From: an archaeon | Lineage (GTDB): Archaea > Nanobdellota > Nanobdellia > Pacearchaeales > GW2011-AR1 | DNA: 32,222 nucleotides | Reading direction: 5' to 3' | Assembly: GCA_030639065.1 (NCBI GenBank) | Contig: DAOWDJ010000015.1 | Span: forward strand, 1-32,222 | In this document: positions 1 to 31,803 of the stretch, piece after piece | Numbering within the stretch: position 1 is the first letter of the stretch | Layout: each line of letters opens with the position of its first letter | Notes under the pieces: generated by a model | What the model saw: the letters and a program-made list of their open reading frames with translations, nothing else | The model's database searches: none | What the model was told of the DNA's origin: nothing | Program-made: the position numbers and the translations under genes

Positions 1-132
1 AATAGTTTCAATATGACAAAACTTGTTTGATACTTTTTTAAAGTATCTCTTAATATTTTTTGGATATATCTTTGTTTTCATAATTATTTTAAGAAAAAAC
101 TGTATATAACTAGTACGTGAAACGTAATGAAA

Positions 133-948
133 CTAGTTCAGGGAAATTTTTTTTTCGTTTCCGTAGCTTTTTCTTTTTATCAAGTTTTTTTCTGCTAAAC
201 TTCGAAGTTTTCTACTTAGTCTTACTTTTGGAATCCCTAATTCTTTTACTAGCTCTTTTGTCCAAGAAGATTTCTCTTTTTTTGATAATAGATATTCTAT
301 AATCTTTTTCTCGTCGCCAAATAAGTTTTTTGTTACACTAACTTTTTTTAAATTTTTAAATTTTTGTTTTGCTTTATTTTGTTTTTTCTTGATTAGATTT
401 ATCTTTTTCTTAAATCTTTTCTGCTGGAAGTATAAAACAATTGCTATAATAATTAACAATGTTCCAACTATAATATAATAAGAAAAGTTTGACGTTGGAA
501 TTCCTTTGTAAAAGATTATAATCTCGCCCTCGCTAAAATCTTTCCATTCGAAGATTATGTTTTTCCCATTTGTTGAAACACTATAATCTTTTGGGAATAT
601 TAAATTATCGGATAAAATATGGTTTTTAGGAAGATAGACTTGAATATTTGAATTTGAATTTGATGGCCTTGGTAGAACAAAAAGATGTTCGTCTCCAGTT
701 TCTCTAATATAATCTTTTGTAATAAATTTGATAGTAGCTTGATCTGTAATTAATCTATTATTAGATAATATATATTTCTCGGTAGATTCTAATACTGAAT
801 AACTTTCAGGTAAAATAATTATTTCTTCCCTATCTGCTTCAATCTCGACTAAGACTTTCTCCCCAACTATTGTATAAGTTATATCTGTCGCAGAAACAAA
901 ACTAATAAAAAACACCGCTAATAGCAAAAATTGACATAACCCCCTCAT
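133..948 (-). CDS. Membrane-anchored protein with N-terminal signal/TM, central TM and C-terminal winged-helix (MarR/HTH-like) domain
   Basis: ORF with hydrophobic N-terminus, second TM (YYIIVGTLLIIIAIVLYF), Lys-rich linker, C-terminal wHTH-like 'EKKIIEYLLSKKEKSSWTKELVKELGIPKVRLSRKLRSLAEKNLIKRKSYGNEKKI'. Confidence 0.7.
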   Translation of the reverse strand: MRGLCQFLLLAVFFISFVSATDITYTIVGEKVLVEIEADREEIIILPESYSVLESTEKYILSNNRLITDQATIKFITKDYIRETGDEHLFVLPRPSNSNSNIQVYLPKNHILSDNLIFPKDYSVSTNGKNIIFEWKDFSEGEIIIFYKGIPTSNFSYYIIVGTLLIIIAIVLYFQQKRFKKKINLIKKKQNKAKQKFKNLKKVSVTKNLFGDEKKIIEYLLSKKEKSSWTKELVKELGIPKVRLSRKLRSLAEKNLIKRKSYGNEKKISLN

Positions 949-987
949 GAGAAATAATAGTTATTTTACTATTTAAACTTGGTGAAA

Positions 988-1647
988 TTAAACCGAATAT
1001 TCAAAAACTTTGTCGTAGGGAATAAACCATTTTGTGGCGGTTTTTCTAGAAGTTTTTTCCATAATTTTTCTAAATAACCTAATGGAATTTCCGTGTGCAG
1101 AAATTGCAACATTAACTTTATTTTTTCTCATATATTTTTTTAAATATTTAATGAAACTCCCCACCCTTTTTTCAACATCAGCGAAAGATTCTCCGTTTGG
1201 CGCTGCAACATTATATCCCCTATGAATTGCCTTGTATTCTTCTTTTCCAAGAAACTTTTCTACTTTGACTTTTAATTTTGGTTCAAGATTTTCAATTGCG
1301 TCGCCATGGATTCTCAAATTATAACTCCTTTCTCCAATTTTGTTAATAAATTGTTCATGAGTTGTACCTTCTAATTTTCCATAACTTCGCTCAATCATTC
1401 TATTATCTTCTAGAATGGTCTTACATTCAGGATGGAATTTTAAAGAAGGTTTTAGGGTATTTTTGGATCTTGACAGTCTGGTTTGAATTGCTACTTCAAA
1501 TTTTTTAGTTTTTAGTTTTTTAGCAATAATCTCTGCATGTCTCCTTCCTTCTGCTGTTAATCTTGCTTCCATCTGTCCAGTAAATCTTCCATCTCTGTTA
1601 AATGTAGTTTTTCCGTGTCTAAATAAATAAATCTTGTACCTCTTCAT
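988..1647 (-). CDS. Histidine phosphatase / phosphoglycerate mutase-like protein
   Basis: N-terminal 'YLFRHGKTTFNRDGRFTGQ' RHG motif and C-terminal 'ISAHGNSIR'. Confidence 0.9.
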   Translation of the reverse strand: MKRYKIYLFRHGKTTFNRDGRFTGQMEARLTAEGRRHAEIIAKKLKTKKFEVAIQTRLSRSKNTLKPSLKFHPECKTILEDNRMIERSYGKLEGTTHEQFINKIGERSYNLRIHGDAIENLEPKLKVKVEKFLGKEEYKAIHRGYNVAAPNGESFADVEKRVGSFIKYLKKYMRKNKVNVAISAHGNSIRLFRKIMEKTSRKTATKWFIPYDKVFEYSV

Positions 1648-1707
1648 ATTATAATTAGAATTAACTGGTATAAAAAGATTTTTATAGCTTAAATCTTTTT
1701 ATTATAC

Positions 1708-2028
1708 ATGATAGCTAATTGGGTGATAATAGGCATGTGTGTTCTTATAGGATTGTTTCTCTTAAAGATGGAGCATCACACTAGAAAGATTAAGGTTATT
1801 AGTGTAATTATAATTGGCTTTATACTTTATTTTTCAATAGTTGGAATGTTTACATCTGAACAAGTTGATCTTAGTTCTTCACGAGGGGTAGTTAATGCAG
1901 TCTATCTTTATTTTGGATGGATTGGTCAAACTGCAACAAATCTTTGGGATATTGGTACGAATACCGTAGATTTGGTTGGGAATGCTATAAAGATTAATAA
2001 TAGTGATGAGAGTTTTAAAAAGAGATAA
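1708..2028 (+). CDS. Small membrane protein of unknown function
   Basis: 106-aa ORF with at least two hydrophobic segments. Confidence 0.6.
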   Translation: MIANWVIIGMCVLIGLFLLKMEHHTRKIKVISVIIIGFILYFSIVGMFTSEQVDLSSSRGVVNAVYLYFGWIGQTATNLWDIGTNTVDLVGNAIKINNSDESFKKR

Positions 2029-2032
2029 GCTA

Positions 2033-3217
2033 TCAGGTGTTGGATATATTATCTAATTTTCTTTTTAGAAAAGGGTAAATGCTTAATAAAATAACCAACA
2101 TGCAGATACCTAAAATCAAAAAACCTAAACGAAAAGAGATTGTCATAATAAACCCTATAGCGAATGCAGCTCCTGATTGGAATAATGCCAATATTTGCTG
2201 TTTAATCGAAAGCATGGTGGCTTTGTATCTTTTATTTATTAAGAAATTATTAAGATAATATTCTTGGATTATTGGATATCGACCAAAATAATATCCACTT
2301 GATATAGCAATCATTAGACCAATAATATATGGATTGCTTAACTGTGAAATTATTATAATTAGTCCTGAAAAGAAGAATGCCTCATAAAGTAATAATGTTT
2401 GTAATTTTATCTTTTTTAATAATTTTAAATTGTGTCCAACAATAAACCATATCACTCTTGATAATGCCATTATAGAACCAATAAAAATAATTGGGAATCC
2501 TAAGGATTGTACGAAAGGTCCCCTGAAAGGAGAGCTTGCCATGAAGAGTCCTCCAAGAATTCCAAGAAATAATGATGTAGTATAAAACCCAATTCCTTTA
2601 AATCTTTTTAACTGTGATAATATTTTTTCTCCTTCTTCGTCTTCTGCGTTATATTTCATTTTAGGAGAATGTAGGGAAAATGCTACAAAAATACCAATCA
2701 CGTCAAAGATTAAATATATTTTAATAGGCATAATTAATGAAATTTTTGTTAACAGTGGTAATAATAGAATCATTCCCGCAGCAACTAATGAAACTTTCGC
2801 GCTAATCTTGCCACTAATTTCTCCGTATTCTTTTTCTTTTTTTAATCCAATAAGTGTGTTATGTAAAAACGCCCCTGCTGTTCCAGATGTAAATGCAAAA
2901 CCTAAAGAAATAAAAGTTGAGCCTAAAATAAAATATGGAACTGAGTTGCCAAAGATGAAAAATAAAGTCGATGCTAGCATAAAAAACTTTGTTAAAATTA
3001 GAGTTTTCTTATGTCCAAATTTGTCTGAAAAATAGCCTGAAGGAATTTCTAGAAGAAATCCTACAAACCAGCCAATTCCAACAAATAATCCTATTTGTTG
3101 GGCAGTAGTATTGGGAAGTGTTAAAAAATAAATGGAGAGAATAGGAATATAATTTCTTCTATTAGTTAATATGAATAAAAAATATTTCCAAATATTTGAT
3201 TTTAATTCCTTTTGCAT
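2033..3217 (-). CDS. MFS transporter
   Basis: About 12 TM segments; 'GYFSDKFGHKKTLILTKFFMLAS' matches the MFS loop 2-3 motif. Confidence 0.85.
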   Translation of the reverse strand: MQKELKSNIWKYFLFILTNRRNYIPILSIYFLTLPNTTAQQIGLFVGIGWFVGFLLEIPSGYFSDKFGHKKTLILTKFFMLASTLFFIFGNSVPYFILGSTFISLGFAFTSGTAGAFLHNTLIGLKKEKEYGEISGKISAKVSLVAAGMILLLPLLTKISLIMPIKIYLIFDVIGIFVAFSLHSPKMKYNAEDEEGEKILSQLKRFKGIGFYTTSLFLGILGGLFMASSPFRGPFVQSLGFPIIFIGSIMALSRVIWFIVGHNLKLLKKIKLQTLLLYEAFFFSGLIIIISQLSNPYIIGLMIAISSGYYFGRYPIIQEYYLNNFLINKRYKATMLSIKQQILALFQSGAAFAIGFIMTISFRLGFLILGICMLVILLSIYPFLKRKLDNISNT

Positions 3218-3264
3218 AATGGTAATAATTTTTAGTAATTTATAACCTTATTGGGGAAATTAGA

Positions 3265-3385
3265 AAGCCACATCTAGGGATCTACTCACAAAATACACTT
3301 CGAAAAAATATCTAAAAAATTAATTTTTCTCGAGGTGTTTTGCTCGCCCGGGACTGTCCCGAGTTTGAAGCCACATCTGGGGATC
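3265..3385 (-). repeat. tRNA-Thr 3'-end direct repeat pair (3265-3282 and 3368-3385) bracketing a hairpin element
   Basis: aagccacatctagggatc vs aagccacatctggggatc, 17/18 identical, 103 bp apart; intervening inverted repeat at 3285-3345. Confidence 0.85.
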
Positions 3386-3443
3386 AAACCCAGGACCTCG
3401 TCATTACCAATGACGCGCTCTATCAAAACTGAGCTAATGCGGC
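3369..3443 (-). tRNA. tRNA-Thr(GGT)
   Basis: Manual cloverleaf on minus strand: acceptor GCCGCAT/ATGTGGC, D-arm GCTC-AGTTTTGATA-GAGC, anticodon arm CGTCA-TTGGTAA-TGACG, T-arm CTGGG-TTTGATC-CCCAG, discriminator T; no encoded CCA. Confidence 0.93.
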
Positions 3444-3492
3444 ATATTTTTTTATCTCCCCGTAAATTTATAAATGCTACCATCACACTTAA

Positions 3493-3975
3493 ATGATGGA
3501 AAATGATGAGTTTGATTTAGAATCGGCATACAACAAATTAAAGACGGAATATGATTTACCTGAATTTGAAAAAATATCTGAAGATTTTGATGTTGAAAAA
3601 AACATAGACAAAGAACCTGTTTTTTTAATGAGAGACATTCGACGAATTATTGTAGAAAAAACTTCTGCATACCTCCAATTATTTGAAACTTTAATTAATC
3701 CAAATTCTCCACCTATGTTTGTGTTTTCAATTTTAAGAAATGTATCCACGGAAGACAAAGATACTATAAAAGAAATTTATAAAATACTGTCTAGAATACA
3801 GATTGAGGCTATGAAGCTAGACATTATCTATAAGGAAGATGCTGAGGCGAAATTTATTGTTGAGACTTTTAATGTGTGGCAAAAATCAAAACTTACAATT
3901 TACAAACTTATAGAAAAATTTGAGATGAATTTTGAAAGCGATGATACCTCAAAGAAACGAAGTTATTTTGCCTGA
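3493..3975 (+). CDS. Conserved-looking hypothetical protein
   Basis: 160-aa acidic helical ORF; convergent with pheT, 3' ends overlap by 13 nt. Confidence 0.65.
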   Translation: MMENDEFDLESAYNKLKTEYDLPEFEKISEDFDVEKNIDKEPVFLMRDIRRIIVEKTSAYLQLFETLINPNSPPMFVFSILRNVSTEDKDTIKEIYKILSRIQIEAMKLDIIYKEDAEAKFIVETFNVWQKSKLTIYKLIEKFEMNFESDDTSKKRSYFA

Positions 3976-5624
3976 TTTAAAAAATCTGTTTCAATTTCTA
4001 GTGCTACCATTGGCATTTTTATTTTCCAATTTTTTAAAACTCTTGGTGCAACTTCCCCTATAAAACCAATATCTTTATCATTAACTATAATCTTCCCGCA
4101 TCTTCCAATAATGTAATTTGAATTTTCTACCGCTTCTATAGAATATTTTGTATTTAACATCTTAAATAAATAATCTAATATCTGTTTTAATTCTGTAAAA
4201 TTAACTTTTTCGTCGATTAGAGAGATGGCCAACCTCTCATTTTCATGTACCCCAACTTCCGAATCTTCAGATAAATCTCTAGAGAAAACTTGTCCCATTT
4301 CAAAAATCTTTTGTGGATAGGCTGCGTCTGAGTTTTCTGATGATATTTGTAGTAAGTTGGTTAGTATGTCCATCCTCAAAATGTTTCTTTCTGTTTTTGA
4401 TTCTTCAACCTCTATAAAATCATTAAAATCATAGTGCATCTTTTTTATGTTTTTCTTTGTGGTTAGATGAAATGAAGATGTTTCCAATAGTCCAAGTCCA
4501 GCTAAAATGTTTCCTATTAATCTTTTTGTTTTATCTACTGGATCTTCGTGAGCGATTGTTGAGATGTCTGGAATTTCTGGTACAAAATTTTCATAGCCAT
4601 ATGCGATTGCGACTTCCTCTGCTAAATCAATCCAATGTAATATGTCTGATCTGTAAGCTGGAATTAGGGCTATCGATTTTCCTTTTTTATTTTCATAACC
4701 AATGCCCATCTGTGCTAAATAATTTTTAATATCCTTTTCGTTCAAATCTATTCCAAGTGTTTTCTCTATATTTTTGATACTAAATGCCAATCTTTCTGTC
4801 GACATATCTGGCGAAATAAAACTTCCATCTTTTCCGTCTTTAATATTCATTGCATAAACTTTTCCTCCCATCTCTGAGATTGAAGCTACAATAATGTTTA
4901 AACATTTTTTTAAATACACCAAATTGTGTCCTGAACATTCAATAAATACCTCTTTAGTATTACAACTAATTCGTCCGGTCTTCTCTGAATTGATAATTGG
5001 CGGCATACTTAACACTTCATTATCAGCGTCGATAAAAACGGGAAATATCCCTTCGTCTTTAAGTAAATCTCCATATTCTCTACCTGCTGGATGTCCTCGC
5101 AAGATTTGTCTACCGGTCATTTCTCTTGTAGATTCCAGAGGTTTAAACTTGATATTGTCTGGATTCCTACCGACAAATCTTATAGGTAATTTAATTTTAT
5201 CTAGTGGGTAAATTCCGATAGCTATCTTCTTACGCTTCCTCCCAATTGAATTATGGAGTTTTTCTTGAACATCAACAATTTCTTTAATTTTCTCATCATT
5301 AAATTTTAACCCTTTAATAATTGTGCAAACCGTATGCGGACGCACAGCTTTTACTGATTTATCTATAATCACAGCATAATTTTTTTCTGGTTTATTTATT
5401 CTGAATTCTGCTATTCTCGTTCTTTTGTTAAATTGATTAACTGCTCTTGCAAAATTTCCCATTGATAATAAATCTGGTCTATTTGGAAAAACCTCTACCG
5501 AAACTTCAGAATCTGTCACTTCTTCAATTGGGGTTCCCATATCAGTTATTTTTTTTTCTAACTCTGCCGTAATCTTCCCTATTTTTTTCTCAAGTTCTTT
5601 TCTATTTAGTGTTAGTATTGTCAT
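3963..5624 (-). CDS. pheT: Phenylalanyl-tRNA synthetase beta subunit, archaeal type
   Basis: 'DSEVSVEVFPNRPDLLSMGNFARAV', B3/4- and B5-like segments, 'PAYRSDILHWIDLAEEVAIAYGYENF'; directly follows pheS. Confidence 0.95.
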   Translation of the reverse strand: MTILTLNRKELEKKIGKITAELEKKITDMGTPIEEVTDSEVSVEVFPNRPDLLSMGNFARAVNQFNKRTRIAEFRINKPEKNYAVIIDKSVKAVRPHTVCTIIKGLKFNDEKIKEIVDVQEKLHNSIGRKRKKIAIGIYPLDKIKLPIRFVGRNPDNIKFKPLESTREMTGRQILRGHPAGREYGDLLKDEGIFPVFIDADNEVLSMPPIINSEKTGRISCNTKEVFIECSGHNLVYLKKCLNIIVASISEMGGKVYAMNIKDGKDGSFISPDMSTERLAFSIKNIEKTLGIDLNEKDIKNYLAQMGIGYENKKGKSIALIPAYRSDILHWIDLAEEVAIAYGYENFVPEIPDISTIAHEDPVDKTKRLIGNILAGLGLLETSSFHLTTKKNIKKMHYDFNDFIEVEESKTERNILRMDILTNLLQISSENSDAAYPQKIFEMGQVFSRDLSEDSEVGVHENERLAISLIDEKVNFTELKQILDYLFKMLNTKYSIEAVENSNYIIGRCGKIIVNDKDIGFIGEVAPRVLKNWKIKMPMVALEIETDFLNQAK

Positions 5625-10599: not shown

Positions 10600-10734
10600 A
10601 TGGGCGCGGCAGGAATCGCCTTCGTGTCACAAGGACACTCGGAACGGAAATTAAAATTTCCTAAAGAAAAAGCTAGTTTGTAATTTTCCTTAAACCCCAA
10701 GGGGTTCGATTAAGGATGGGCGCGGCAGGAATCG
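10600..10734 (-). repeat. tRNA-Trp 3'-end direct repeat pair (10600-10618 and 10716-10734) bracketing structured DNA
   Basis: atgggcgcggcaggaatcg present identically (19/19) at both positions, 116 bp apart. Confidence 0.92.
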
Positions 10735-10803
10735 AACCCACTTCTTCCGGGGTCTCCGAGTAAATTTTTGGAGCCGGACATTCTACCACTATACTACGCA
10801 CCC
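10717..10803 (-). tRNA. tRNA-Trp(CCA) with a putative ~16-nt intron at 37/38
   Basis: Acceptor GGGTGCG/CGCGCCC, anticodon stem TCCGG/CCGGA enclosing CTCCAAAAATTTACTCGGAGACC (23 nt), T-arm GTGGG-TTCGATT-CCTGC, discriminator A; CTCC/GGAG could form the central BHB helix. D-stem has an A12-A23 mismatch. Confidence 0.8.
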
Positions 10804-19721: not shown

Positions 19722-19958
19722 ATCACAAAATGCATTTCACAAAACTATAGAATTTAGATTGTTTTTTCTCGAAGCGTTTTGCTCACACCGACCATCTGCG
19801 GTTTGATGTCCTAAAAACAACGCTTTTGAGAGGACTCTACTCAAACTTCACTCTGAAATTTTTCTAATCACTTCGTTGAGAAAAATTCGAGCAAAGGTTT
19901 TCGCCTCCGACTTGTCTGCGGTTCGACGTCCTAGAAAGCTACGCTTTTGAGAGGACTC
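19722..19958 (-). repeat. Two tandem tRNA-Asn 3'-end-anchored hairpin units
   Basis: Direct repeat acgcttttgagaggactc at 19820-19837 and 19941-19958 (18/18); each copy is followed on the minus strand by an inverted T-arm-like segment and a hairpin. Confidence 0.9.
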
Positions 19959-20014
19959 GAACCTCCGACATCACGGTTAACAGCCGTGCGCTCTACCTAC
20001 TGAGCTACAAAAGC
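19942..20014 (-). tRNA. tRNA-Asn(GTT)
   Basis: Acceptor GCTTTTG/CAAAAGC, D-arm GCTC-AGTAGGTA-GAGC, anticodon arm CACGG-CTGTTAA-CCGTG, T-loop TTCGAGT, discriminator G. Confidence 0.96.
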
Positions 20015-20076
20015 ATAATCAATTATCAAAAATTGGATATATAAAACTAACGATTAAGGCATAAATATATTCTATC

Positions 20077-29916: not shown

Positions 29917-31803
29917 ATGGAAATTGAGGAATTAAAAAGAGATGACTCTCTAGACTATGTTAAAATTTTGAGGGCATTAATGGAATTGCCATTTCAGGTC
30001 GGGAGAAATCTGTTGGTAGATTTTCTAAATGGAGATTATGGGAATAAATCAGTTACAAAAAATAGACTAGATGAGTTAGATAATTTTGGGAAACTACTTT
30101 GGGGCAAAGACAAAATATTCAGAAAGATAGATGAATTGGTGACTAATGGGTTTATTGAGTTGGTGACTAGCGACTATAATAAATTTGTAAAGGTTTTATC
30201 GTTGACAATTAGGGGCCGAAACGAAATCGTGAACCCGACTTTATCTGAAAAAAAACTGGCAAACAAAATTGAATTTAAAAAAACAGAGATTAGCAATGAA
30301 GATCGTAAAAGGTTTGAGGGACTAAATGGGTTCTTGGACCATTTTAATGATGAGCAAAAAAAGGCAGTTATTTCGGAAAATTCAAATATACTTTGTGTTG
30401 CTGGTGCAGGATCTGGAAAGACTATGGTTTTAACTAAGAGAATTGAATTTTTAGTAAAATATAAGGGGGTTGATGTCTCCAAAATTTTAGCTATTACATT
30501 TACTAGAAAGGCTAGGCAGGAAATGGAAAAGCGGCTTCTTGAGCTGGGTATTAAGGGTGTTGTAATTCATACTTTTAATTCGTTTTGTGAAAGAATTTTA
30601 AGAATACACGGGGCTGAAATTTATGGCCGAACGATTCGAGTACAAGGATATGGGGATAAAATTCTCGCGATAAATATGGCTTTAGCGTCGATGGGTTTAA
30701 ACATAGAGGAGGTTGTGAGTAATTATTTTACATCGTCTCAGAAAAAATTTAAAAATAAAGGTCAGCTTACAAACAGTTTTATGAATGATTGTTTTTCGGT
30801 AATGGATTATTTTAAAGTAACTGGAGATGAGTACGATTTCAGTAGGAATGTCGACGAGAAAGAAAAAGATAATGCTCGGAGAATTTATCAGATTACTCAA
30901 TATCTAAAAGAGCATATGAAAACGCAAGGGCTTAGAGACTACACTGATCAAATTATTGATACGATTAAATTTTTCAAAGCTAGTCCCAATAGCATACCTT
31001 CGTTCGATCATGTTCTAGTTGATGAATATCAAGATGTAAACGCTATGCAAATTGAGCTGATTGAATTATTAGCTTCTCCAAACTTGTTTGTCGTCGGAGA
31101 TCCTCGACAGTCCATTTTCGGATGGAGAGGTTCTGATATAGGTTATATTTTGGATTTTGAAAAAACTCATACTAATGTTGACTTAATTCATCTAACTAAA
31201 AATTATCGGAGCGCTAAGGAGATTGTTAAGTTTATGAACCATTCGATCAGTGATATGGGTTTGCCTGATTTGGAACATCATAATGAATTTAGAAATGTTG
31301 AAATTAGGATTTTGGATTTTGAGGGTGAGAAAGCTGAGCAGGAGTTTGTTATAGGGAATATTCTTAATTCAGATGTAGCGAACGAGGATATTTTTGTTTT
31401 GGCTAGAACGAATAGGCAGCTAATGGAATTGTCGCAATCTATGAATGCAAGAGGGATTCCTCATCTTGTGAGGGCAGATATGGGAGTTGGAAAAGGTGAT
31501 AATGAGGGAATCAAAGAAGGAAAAGTTACGCTTGCTAGTGTTCATGCAATTAAAGGATTAGAGACAAAAAAAGTTTTTGTAATTGGAGCTAATGAACAGA
31601 ATTTTCCTTGTAAGGCAAGTGACCATCCTGCAATTGAAATGATAAAAGATGATGATTATAATAAAGAAGAAGAAGAAAGACGATTATTTTACGTGGCAAT
31701 TTCGAGGGCAAAAGAAATTCTGTATGTAACTTATTCCGGGAAGAAACCGACTCATTTTATCAGTGACGAAATGAAACAGATGAATGTCGGCGCTACAAGA
31801 TAG
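29917..31803 (+). CDS. UvrD/PcrA-like SF1 helicase with N-terminal winged-helix (RQC-like) domain
   Basis: 'LCVAGAGSGKTMVLTKRI', 'DHVLVDEYQDVNAMQ', 'VVGDPRQSIFGWRGSD', 'VTLASVHAIKGLETKKVFVIG'; N-terminal ~120 aa extension. Confidence 0.93.
   Translation: MEIEELKRDDSLDYVKILRALMELPFQVGRNLLVDFLNGDYGNKSVTKNRLDELDNFGKLLWGKDKIFRKIDELVTNGFIELVTSDYNKFVKVLSLTIRGRNEIVNPTLSEKKLANKIEFKKTEISNEDRKRFEGLNGFLDHFNDEQKKAVISENSNILCVAGAGSGKTMVLTKRIEFLVKYKGVDVSKILAITFTRKARQEMEKRLLELGIKGVVIHTFNSFCERILRIHGAEIYGRTIRVQGYGDKILAINMALASMGLNIEEVVSNYFTSSQKKFKNKGQLTNSFMNDCFSVMDYFKVTGDEYDFSRNVDEKEKDNARRIYQITQYLKEHMKTQGLRDYTDQIIDTIKFFKASPNSIPSFDHVLVDEYQDVNAMQIELIELLASPNLFVVGDPRQSIFGWRGSDIGYILDFEKTHTNVDLIHLTKNYRSAKEIVKFMNHSISDMGLPDLEHHNEFRNVEIRILDFEGEKAEQEFVIGNILNSDVANEDIFVLARTNRQLMELSQSMNARGIPHLVRADMGVGKGDNEGIKEGKVTLASVHAIKGLETKKVFVIGANEQNFPCKASDHPAIEMIKDDDYNKEEEERRLFYVAISRAKEILYVTYSGKKPTHFISDEMKQMNVGATR

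Follow-up and report, generated by a model that had tools for sequence, protein, structure and literature searches.

tRNA genes are classic landing sites of prokaryotic mobile DNA, and each integrase known to us uses one or a few tRNAs and brings kilobases of cargo. Elements moved by tRNA-targeting tyrosine integrases (archaeal Int elements and Islander-type islands) enter the T-loop or anticodon loop, keep an intact gene and displace a 3′-end fragment, with an identity block running from the loop to the gene end; the 3′ ends of protein genes are also used. Archaeal tyrosine recombinases have been reported to cut at the borders of tRNA loops, where the stems supply palindromic arms (PMC8371274). 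Known archaeal examples of tRNA gene fragments that arose by integration of mobile elements flank ~9–23 kb of DNA (PMC9897764). The feature described here is like the tyrosine-integrase elements in all of the above respects of target and outcome, but it consists of a ~110-nt unit without a gene, places one core on many isotypes, and carries inverted and direct copies of the T-stem that derive from the target. The unit is too short to hold an integrase gene, and only one segment flanked by the core, in genome G014, has one. Taken together, our observations describe a real and unusual feature, apparently a miniature, non-autonomous integrative element at the T-arms of tRNAs in one archaeal genus (Pacearchaeota). 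No description of such units was found in the open literature searched.

The window, by which we mean the whole 32,222-nt stretch of contig DAOWDJ010000015.1 that was analysed, had been annotated initially as carrying two tandem units of the same architecture at a tRNA-Asn gene, each with an 18-nt core that is followed on the minus strand by an inverted T-arm-like stretch and then by a hairpin. The sequence bears out this tandem structure (Table 1). Specifically, the 18-nt core claimed for both places is an exact repeat (19820–19837 and 19941–19958), the next 23 nt recur at 87%, and the spacing is 120–121 nt. These 18 nt form the 3′ terminus of tRNA-Asn (19958–19941), which makes the second copy a duplicate of that terminus. 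A complete unit consists, in order, of the intact tRNA, L′ (the inverted 5′ half of the T-arm), L (a direct copy of the 5′ side of the T-stem), the core hairpin X, and R (a copy of the tRNA 3′ end). At tRNA-Asn a spacer of ~15 nt separates the gene from L′ of unit 1. The two units have diverged from each other, as had also been proposed: unit 2 is the more diverged, and no R copy was recognised after it. Its hairpin (minus strand, 19785–19723) is similar by eye to the one behind tRNA-Thr in the same window. Misassembly is an unlikely source of this pattern, since the same unit grammar is present in metagenome-assembled genomes (MAGs) of several independent projects and, at tRNA-Asn itself, in G001, G003 and G012.

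Table 1. Coordinates of the units, their adjacent tRNAs and the X-bounded element of G014 (positions refer to the window unless a contig is named)
Feature	Position	Strand	Details
Intact tRNA-Asn (GTT)	19941..20015	(-)	ARAGORN and Rfam, 73.2 bits
T-stem 5′ segment L inside intact tRNA-Asn	19969-19962	(-)	
Block R inside intact tRNA-Asn	19958-19942	(-)	T-loop to 3′ end
L′ of unit 1	19914..19926	(-)	Inverted T-arm 5′ half, TCGAACCGCAGAC, 11/13 to reverse complement
L of unit 1	19904..19911	(-)	Direct copy of variable loop and T-stem 5′ side, GTCGGAGG, 8/8
Core hairpin X of unit 1	19838..19903	(-)	Dispersed element, 66 nt; covariance model R1, 94.1 bits
R copy of unit 1	19821..19837	(-)	Duplicated tRNA-Asn 3′ end, GAGTCCTCTCAAAAGCG, exact
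L′ of unit 2	19794..19806	(-)	TCAAACCGCAGAT; from sequence
Decayed L (GTCGGTG) and related hairpin of unit 2	19723..19792	(-)	TGAGCAAAACGC...GCATTTTGTGA; from sequence
Intact tRNA-Thr (GGT)	3369..3443	(-)	
Unit of the same kind behind tRNA-Thr	3266..3368	(-)	L′ 3368-3356, L 3354-3347, hairpin 3346-3283, R copy 3282-3266 (15/16)
Apparently intron-bearing tRNA-Trp	10717..10803	(-)	Rfam, 46.7 bits; missed by ARAGORN
Unit with different core behind apparent tRNA-Trp	10601..10716	(-)	Palindrome TCGAACCCCTTGGGGTTTA (10709-10691), insert to 10618, R copy 10617-10601 (16/16)
X-bounded 4.9-kb element of G014	L039 (G014:C24, JAHJSH010000025.1), 1-5031		5.0-kb contig; X at both ends

With respect to the architecture that the two units share, the tandem structure stands, but it is not specific to tRNA-Asn; the hairpin at this locus belongs to a dispersed family of mobile hairpins. 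When this segment of the window was searched in relatives, the hairpin part recurred in the same genome and across the genus, each time in foreign surroundings. A covariance model of X gave 58 matches in 13 of the 16 genomes of the genus; when 200 genomes of the order were searched with it, the only finds outside the genus were weak relatives in two other genera. An exact core pattern, searched in 85,462 species genomes, was confined to MAGs that come from several projects and bear the label Pacearchaeota, Nanoarchaeota or ‘archaeon’; viral contigs gave no match to it.

X itself is a ~60-nt non-coding hairpin, which in the aligned copies has the common core CGAAAATCTTTGCTCGAATTTTTC-loop-GAAAAATTTTAGAGTGAAGTTTGAGTA and a helix of 16–18 pairs with a 2-nt bulge. 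Three G–U or U–G pairs of this helix are kept in 20–22 of 22 sequences, and since these wobble pairs become A–C mismatches on the opposite strand, the structure is strand specific. The initial annotation was right that the G–U pairs of the unit 1 hairpin fit minus-strand RNA only; folded as such, this hairpin is more stable than shuffled sequences (z = −3.0). The count of compensatory changes that the annotation had suggested likewise came out in favour of a conserved structure once many copies were aligned: 30 cells are changed on both sides, whereas shuffles gave 12.4 such cells and slid controls no more than 7, and the covariation score is 0.201, with a maximum of 0.077 for the slid controls. 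Since the sequences tested had also supplied the structure, the slid control carries some bias; the shuffle control ignores relatedness. Changes on both sides affect 5 of the 18 pairs, mostly at the two helix ends.

The position of X is tied to tRNA genes, and its flanks are tied to the particular tRNA beside it. Of 63 X copies in the genus and family, 48 have a tRNA within 400 nt, and those on the same strand mostly start 17–35 nt after the intact gene. The usual site of X is the T-loop of an additional, incomplete copy of the adjacent tRNA; positions in an anticodon loop (tRNA-Tyr and tRNA-Arg) or antisense to the tRNA (G015 and G008) are less frequent. L matches the adjacent tRNA at 6.94 of 8 positions (4.72 for other isotypes), R at 12.43 of 14 (6.89) and L′ at 9.34 of 13 (7.36), values that none of 2000 permutations reached. 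L′ often pairs by eye with L, with a purine–purine mismatch at a similar place. The duplicated block starts at T-loop position 55–57 in 24 of 31 copies, typically ends 0–3 nt past the gene and has a median length of 20 nt. The grammar is also found at the 3′ end of a protein gene in G005, a putative YchF-like GTPase judged from the gene’s own sequence, where it forms an exact tandem duplicate. Exact tandem duplications occur at G012:C2:275236-275394 and G005:C16:8130-8304.

When all core types are counted, R copies (at least 14/16 matches within 250 nt of the tRNA) follow 10 of 28 tRNAs in the genome of the window and 13 of 36 in G015, or about one-third. By the same measure none of the 34 tRNAs in a control genome from another family of the order (G039) has one, and none of 1261 shuffled R queries over the two genomes reached 14/16. 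These partial copies beside an intact tRNA are like the fragments left by integration of mobile elements (PMC9897764), but they lie mostly 50–160 nt from the gene and concern about a third of all tRNA genes in two genomes. This cautions that many of the tRNA 3′-end fragments in such genomes do not stem from large integrated elements.

The relationships among X copies indicate movement between tRNAs. X is 94% identical between tRNA-Leu of G011 and the tRNA-Phe and tRNA-Asn of G000, and 93% identical to the copy at tRNA-Thr of G003, while the flanks follow the local tRNA in each case. With cores up to 94% identical across tRNAs and species and flanks that are local, it follows that X moves and that the flanks derive from the target. 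By our own reading of the printed list, the nearest neighbour of X sits at a different isotype in about 26 of 35 cases; some copies were inherited in place, as seven nearest neighbours share the isotype and belong to another genome. Nearest neighbours show a weak tendency to share a genome, which was reached by 68 of 1000 shuffles. At tRNA-Phe, about eight species have an insertion with a 3′-end copy, with several different cores, and G003, G004, G013 and G015 have none. The G004 locus represents an empty site, because the downstream gene is orthologous (45% amino-acid identity). The unit is thus a member of a mobile hairpin family dispersed beside many tRNAs, flanked each time by copies of the T-arm and 3′ end of that tRNA.

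We favour, on balance, the explanation that the units are a payload-free, miniature, non-coding integrative element, inserted in tRNA T-loops, that a tyrosine recombinase probably moves in trans. The sequences show insertion beside a tRNA that stays intact, with its 3′ end (T-loop position ~57 to 0–3 nt past the gene) present a second time beyond X, flanks specific to the target, and spread between tRNAs; we infer site-specific recombination at the T-loop as the mechanism. R would be the attachment identity block of the recombinase, the T-stem arms L and R may form its core-binding palindrome, and the strand-asymmetric hairpin X, with its conserved G–U pairs and 2-nt bulge, could serve as a recognition structure. 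Given that such recombinases cut at tRNA loop borders and that their elements restore the gene 3′ end, the unit R-s-L′-L-X can be understood as a cassette that carries no payload and has its own end at X|R, and it is this cassette that would be mobilised in trans. The shared architecture at tRNA-Asn is probably the footprint of T-loop insertion twice in succession, and the outer of the two insertions would be the older. Like MITEs and other non-autonomous mini-elements, the unit is short, non-coding, palindromic and dispersed and carries no enzyme; unlike them, it lacks a short target-site duplication of fixed length on its flanks and is directed to a particular place in the structure of tRNAs. 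No autonomous parent sharing the ends of the mini-unit was found. Several observations count against this explanation: no recombinase is tied to X itself, ~110 nt is very small for a circular intermediate, and a standard integrase reaction does not account for the inverted copy L′. The system is of interest because one ~60-nt hairpin stands beside at least a dozen tRNA isotypes in a reduced DPANN genus, with the local T-arm copied around it and the gene unharmed. It thereby offers a natural data set on recognition of the T-loop as an attachment site independent of sequence, and on how a DNA element could gain a target-matched arm.

In terms of the enzyme, tyrosine recombinases are encoded in 15 of the 16 genus genomes, and one family of ~410 aa is found in 12 of them, often right behind tRNA-Asp, tRNA-Tyr, tRNA-Glu or tRNA-Gly. 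Its location directly after tRNAs in several of these genomes speaks for the mini-element explanation, as do the X sites of G014 that bound an element encoding such a recombinase. A candidate role for this family in moving X is unsupported. The arms beside R in its common elements (P′ TACCTTCTTGGC..., P ...GCCAAGAGTGGATGGTC) are unlike the mini-unit ends, for which reason we make no claim that X is moved by it; at most of its insertions, moreover, a strong match to X is missing. The family was also not found in G000, G006, G010 and G013, which incomplete assemblies explain in part; these absences and the differing arms weigh against the mini-element explanation as well. In several species of the genus a ~410-aa recombinase lies directly behind tRNA-Asp (L135:718-1941 and homologues), in some with an arm like TACCTTCTTGGC after the tRNA.

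A rather unlikely alternative is that each unit is the scar of a larger tyrosine-recombinase element whose payload was removed by recombination between flanking repeats, as in solo LTRs, so that the unit itself would be immobile. The common integrases do use the same tRNA 3′-end targets, and genome G014 supplies an element of the required form, in which identical 141-nt repeats containing X, shared by three contigs, flank 4.9 kb of DNA; homologous recombination between such identical repeats would leave a single unit beside the tRNA. This element encodes a tyrosine recombinase of the ~410-aa family (with an in-frame stop), a reverse transcriptase like those of diversity-generating retroelements (DGRs) and a putative DGR target or variable protein. 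It is possibly circular, and the assembly is compatible with other contig orders too. Against the scar explanation, the 6–20 kb around the integrase elements at tRNA-Asp, Tyr, Glu and Gly contain no strong match to X. Moreover, X stands on many isotypes with almost no full-length partners, which argues that the small unit itself moves. A large payload between R copies near integrases was also considered, but no R copies were detected at up to 2 mismatches in the stretches examined.

We assign a low probability to replication slippage or template switching at palindromic T-arms, by which partial tRNA copies and hairpins would accumulate locally with no mobile element. The L′–L palindromes, the exact tandem duplications in G012 and G005 and the other hairpin types in the same slot do resemble slippage products, but such a process fits poorly with the same X core beside different tRNAs in different species with tRNA-specific flanks, and with the fixed boundary of the duplicated block in the T-loop.

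An integron-like Pacearchaeota system is similarly unlikely. Here a tyrosine recombinase would use X as single-strand hairpin sites to capture DNA at tRNA T-arms, with the T-arm as attI, X as attC, the empty 110-nt units as gene-less cassettes and G014 as a loaded array with a diversity-generating retroelement. attC core boxes have the form GTTRRRY/RYYYAAC and by inspection are not seen in the consensus of 22 X copies. X shares with attC sites, including those of archaeal integrons (PMC9668308), an imperfect hairpin with a variable terminal loop, unpaired bases and strand asymmetry. As in integrons, the X sites of G014 separate larger gene-bearing segments, X recurring where an adjoining 4.4-kb segment (next contig) ends. 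Unlike attC, X has no IntI shown with it, and its sites sit singly in tRNA T-loops.

It is very unlikely that X is a functional RNA or a processing or termination structure in the 3′ trailer of tRNA transcripts. The conserved single-strand structure, compensatory changes and G–U pairs would suit such a role, but copies also lie antisense to the tRNA, inside anticodon loops or at a protein gene, presence at the same tRNA differs between species, and an Rfam scan returned tRNAs and weak chance matches with no family matching X. An archaeal tRNA intron of the bulge–helix–bulge (BHB) type was likewise rejected, the adjacent tRNA being intact and most inserted copies lacking the 5′ half by inspection.

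Casposon duplications are 14–15 bp long, whereas Y1 elements are not known to produce any. Mobilisation by a Cas1 (casposon-like or MICE), Y1 HUH (IS200/IS605-type) or reverse-transcriptase system, each capable of small tRNA-linked insertions, is highly improbable: the target duplication at the tRNA 3′ end resembles casposon targets, the hairpin ends resemble IS200/IS605 elements, and one X-flanked element carries a reverse transcriptase, but Cas1, Y1 transposase and reverse transcriptase are found in only 1, 6 and 2 of the 16 genus genomes, all three are absent from G015 with its 11 X copies, Y1 is also not found in G008 or G000, and the block here has a median of 20 nt.

Several further features were seen in and beyond the window. 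A second hairpin family (GAGTGTCCTTGTGACACGAAGGC) fills the same slot behind other tRNAs, namely at 10618–10716 of the window, near the core at 5707 of L043 and near 11900 of L031. On the plus strand at 31642–31742 the window has a weak Rfam match, below the gathering score, to the C. difficile sRNA n00280; the match lies in a helicase gene (reading frame 29917–31803). A related core is repeated in tandem behind tRNA-Arg in a different genus of the family (L097, G126:C15, 1054–1290). Finally, in the 3′ flank of tRNA-Asn of G032, from another genus (L013), a different hairpin (AGGTCGAGCTTCAGTGCTTTGGTGAGGCC, with variants) is present three times between the tRNA and its 3′-end copy.
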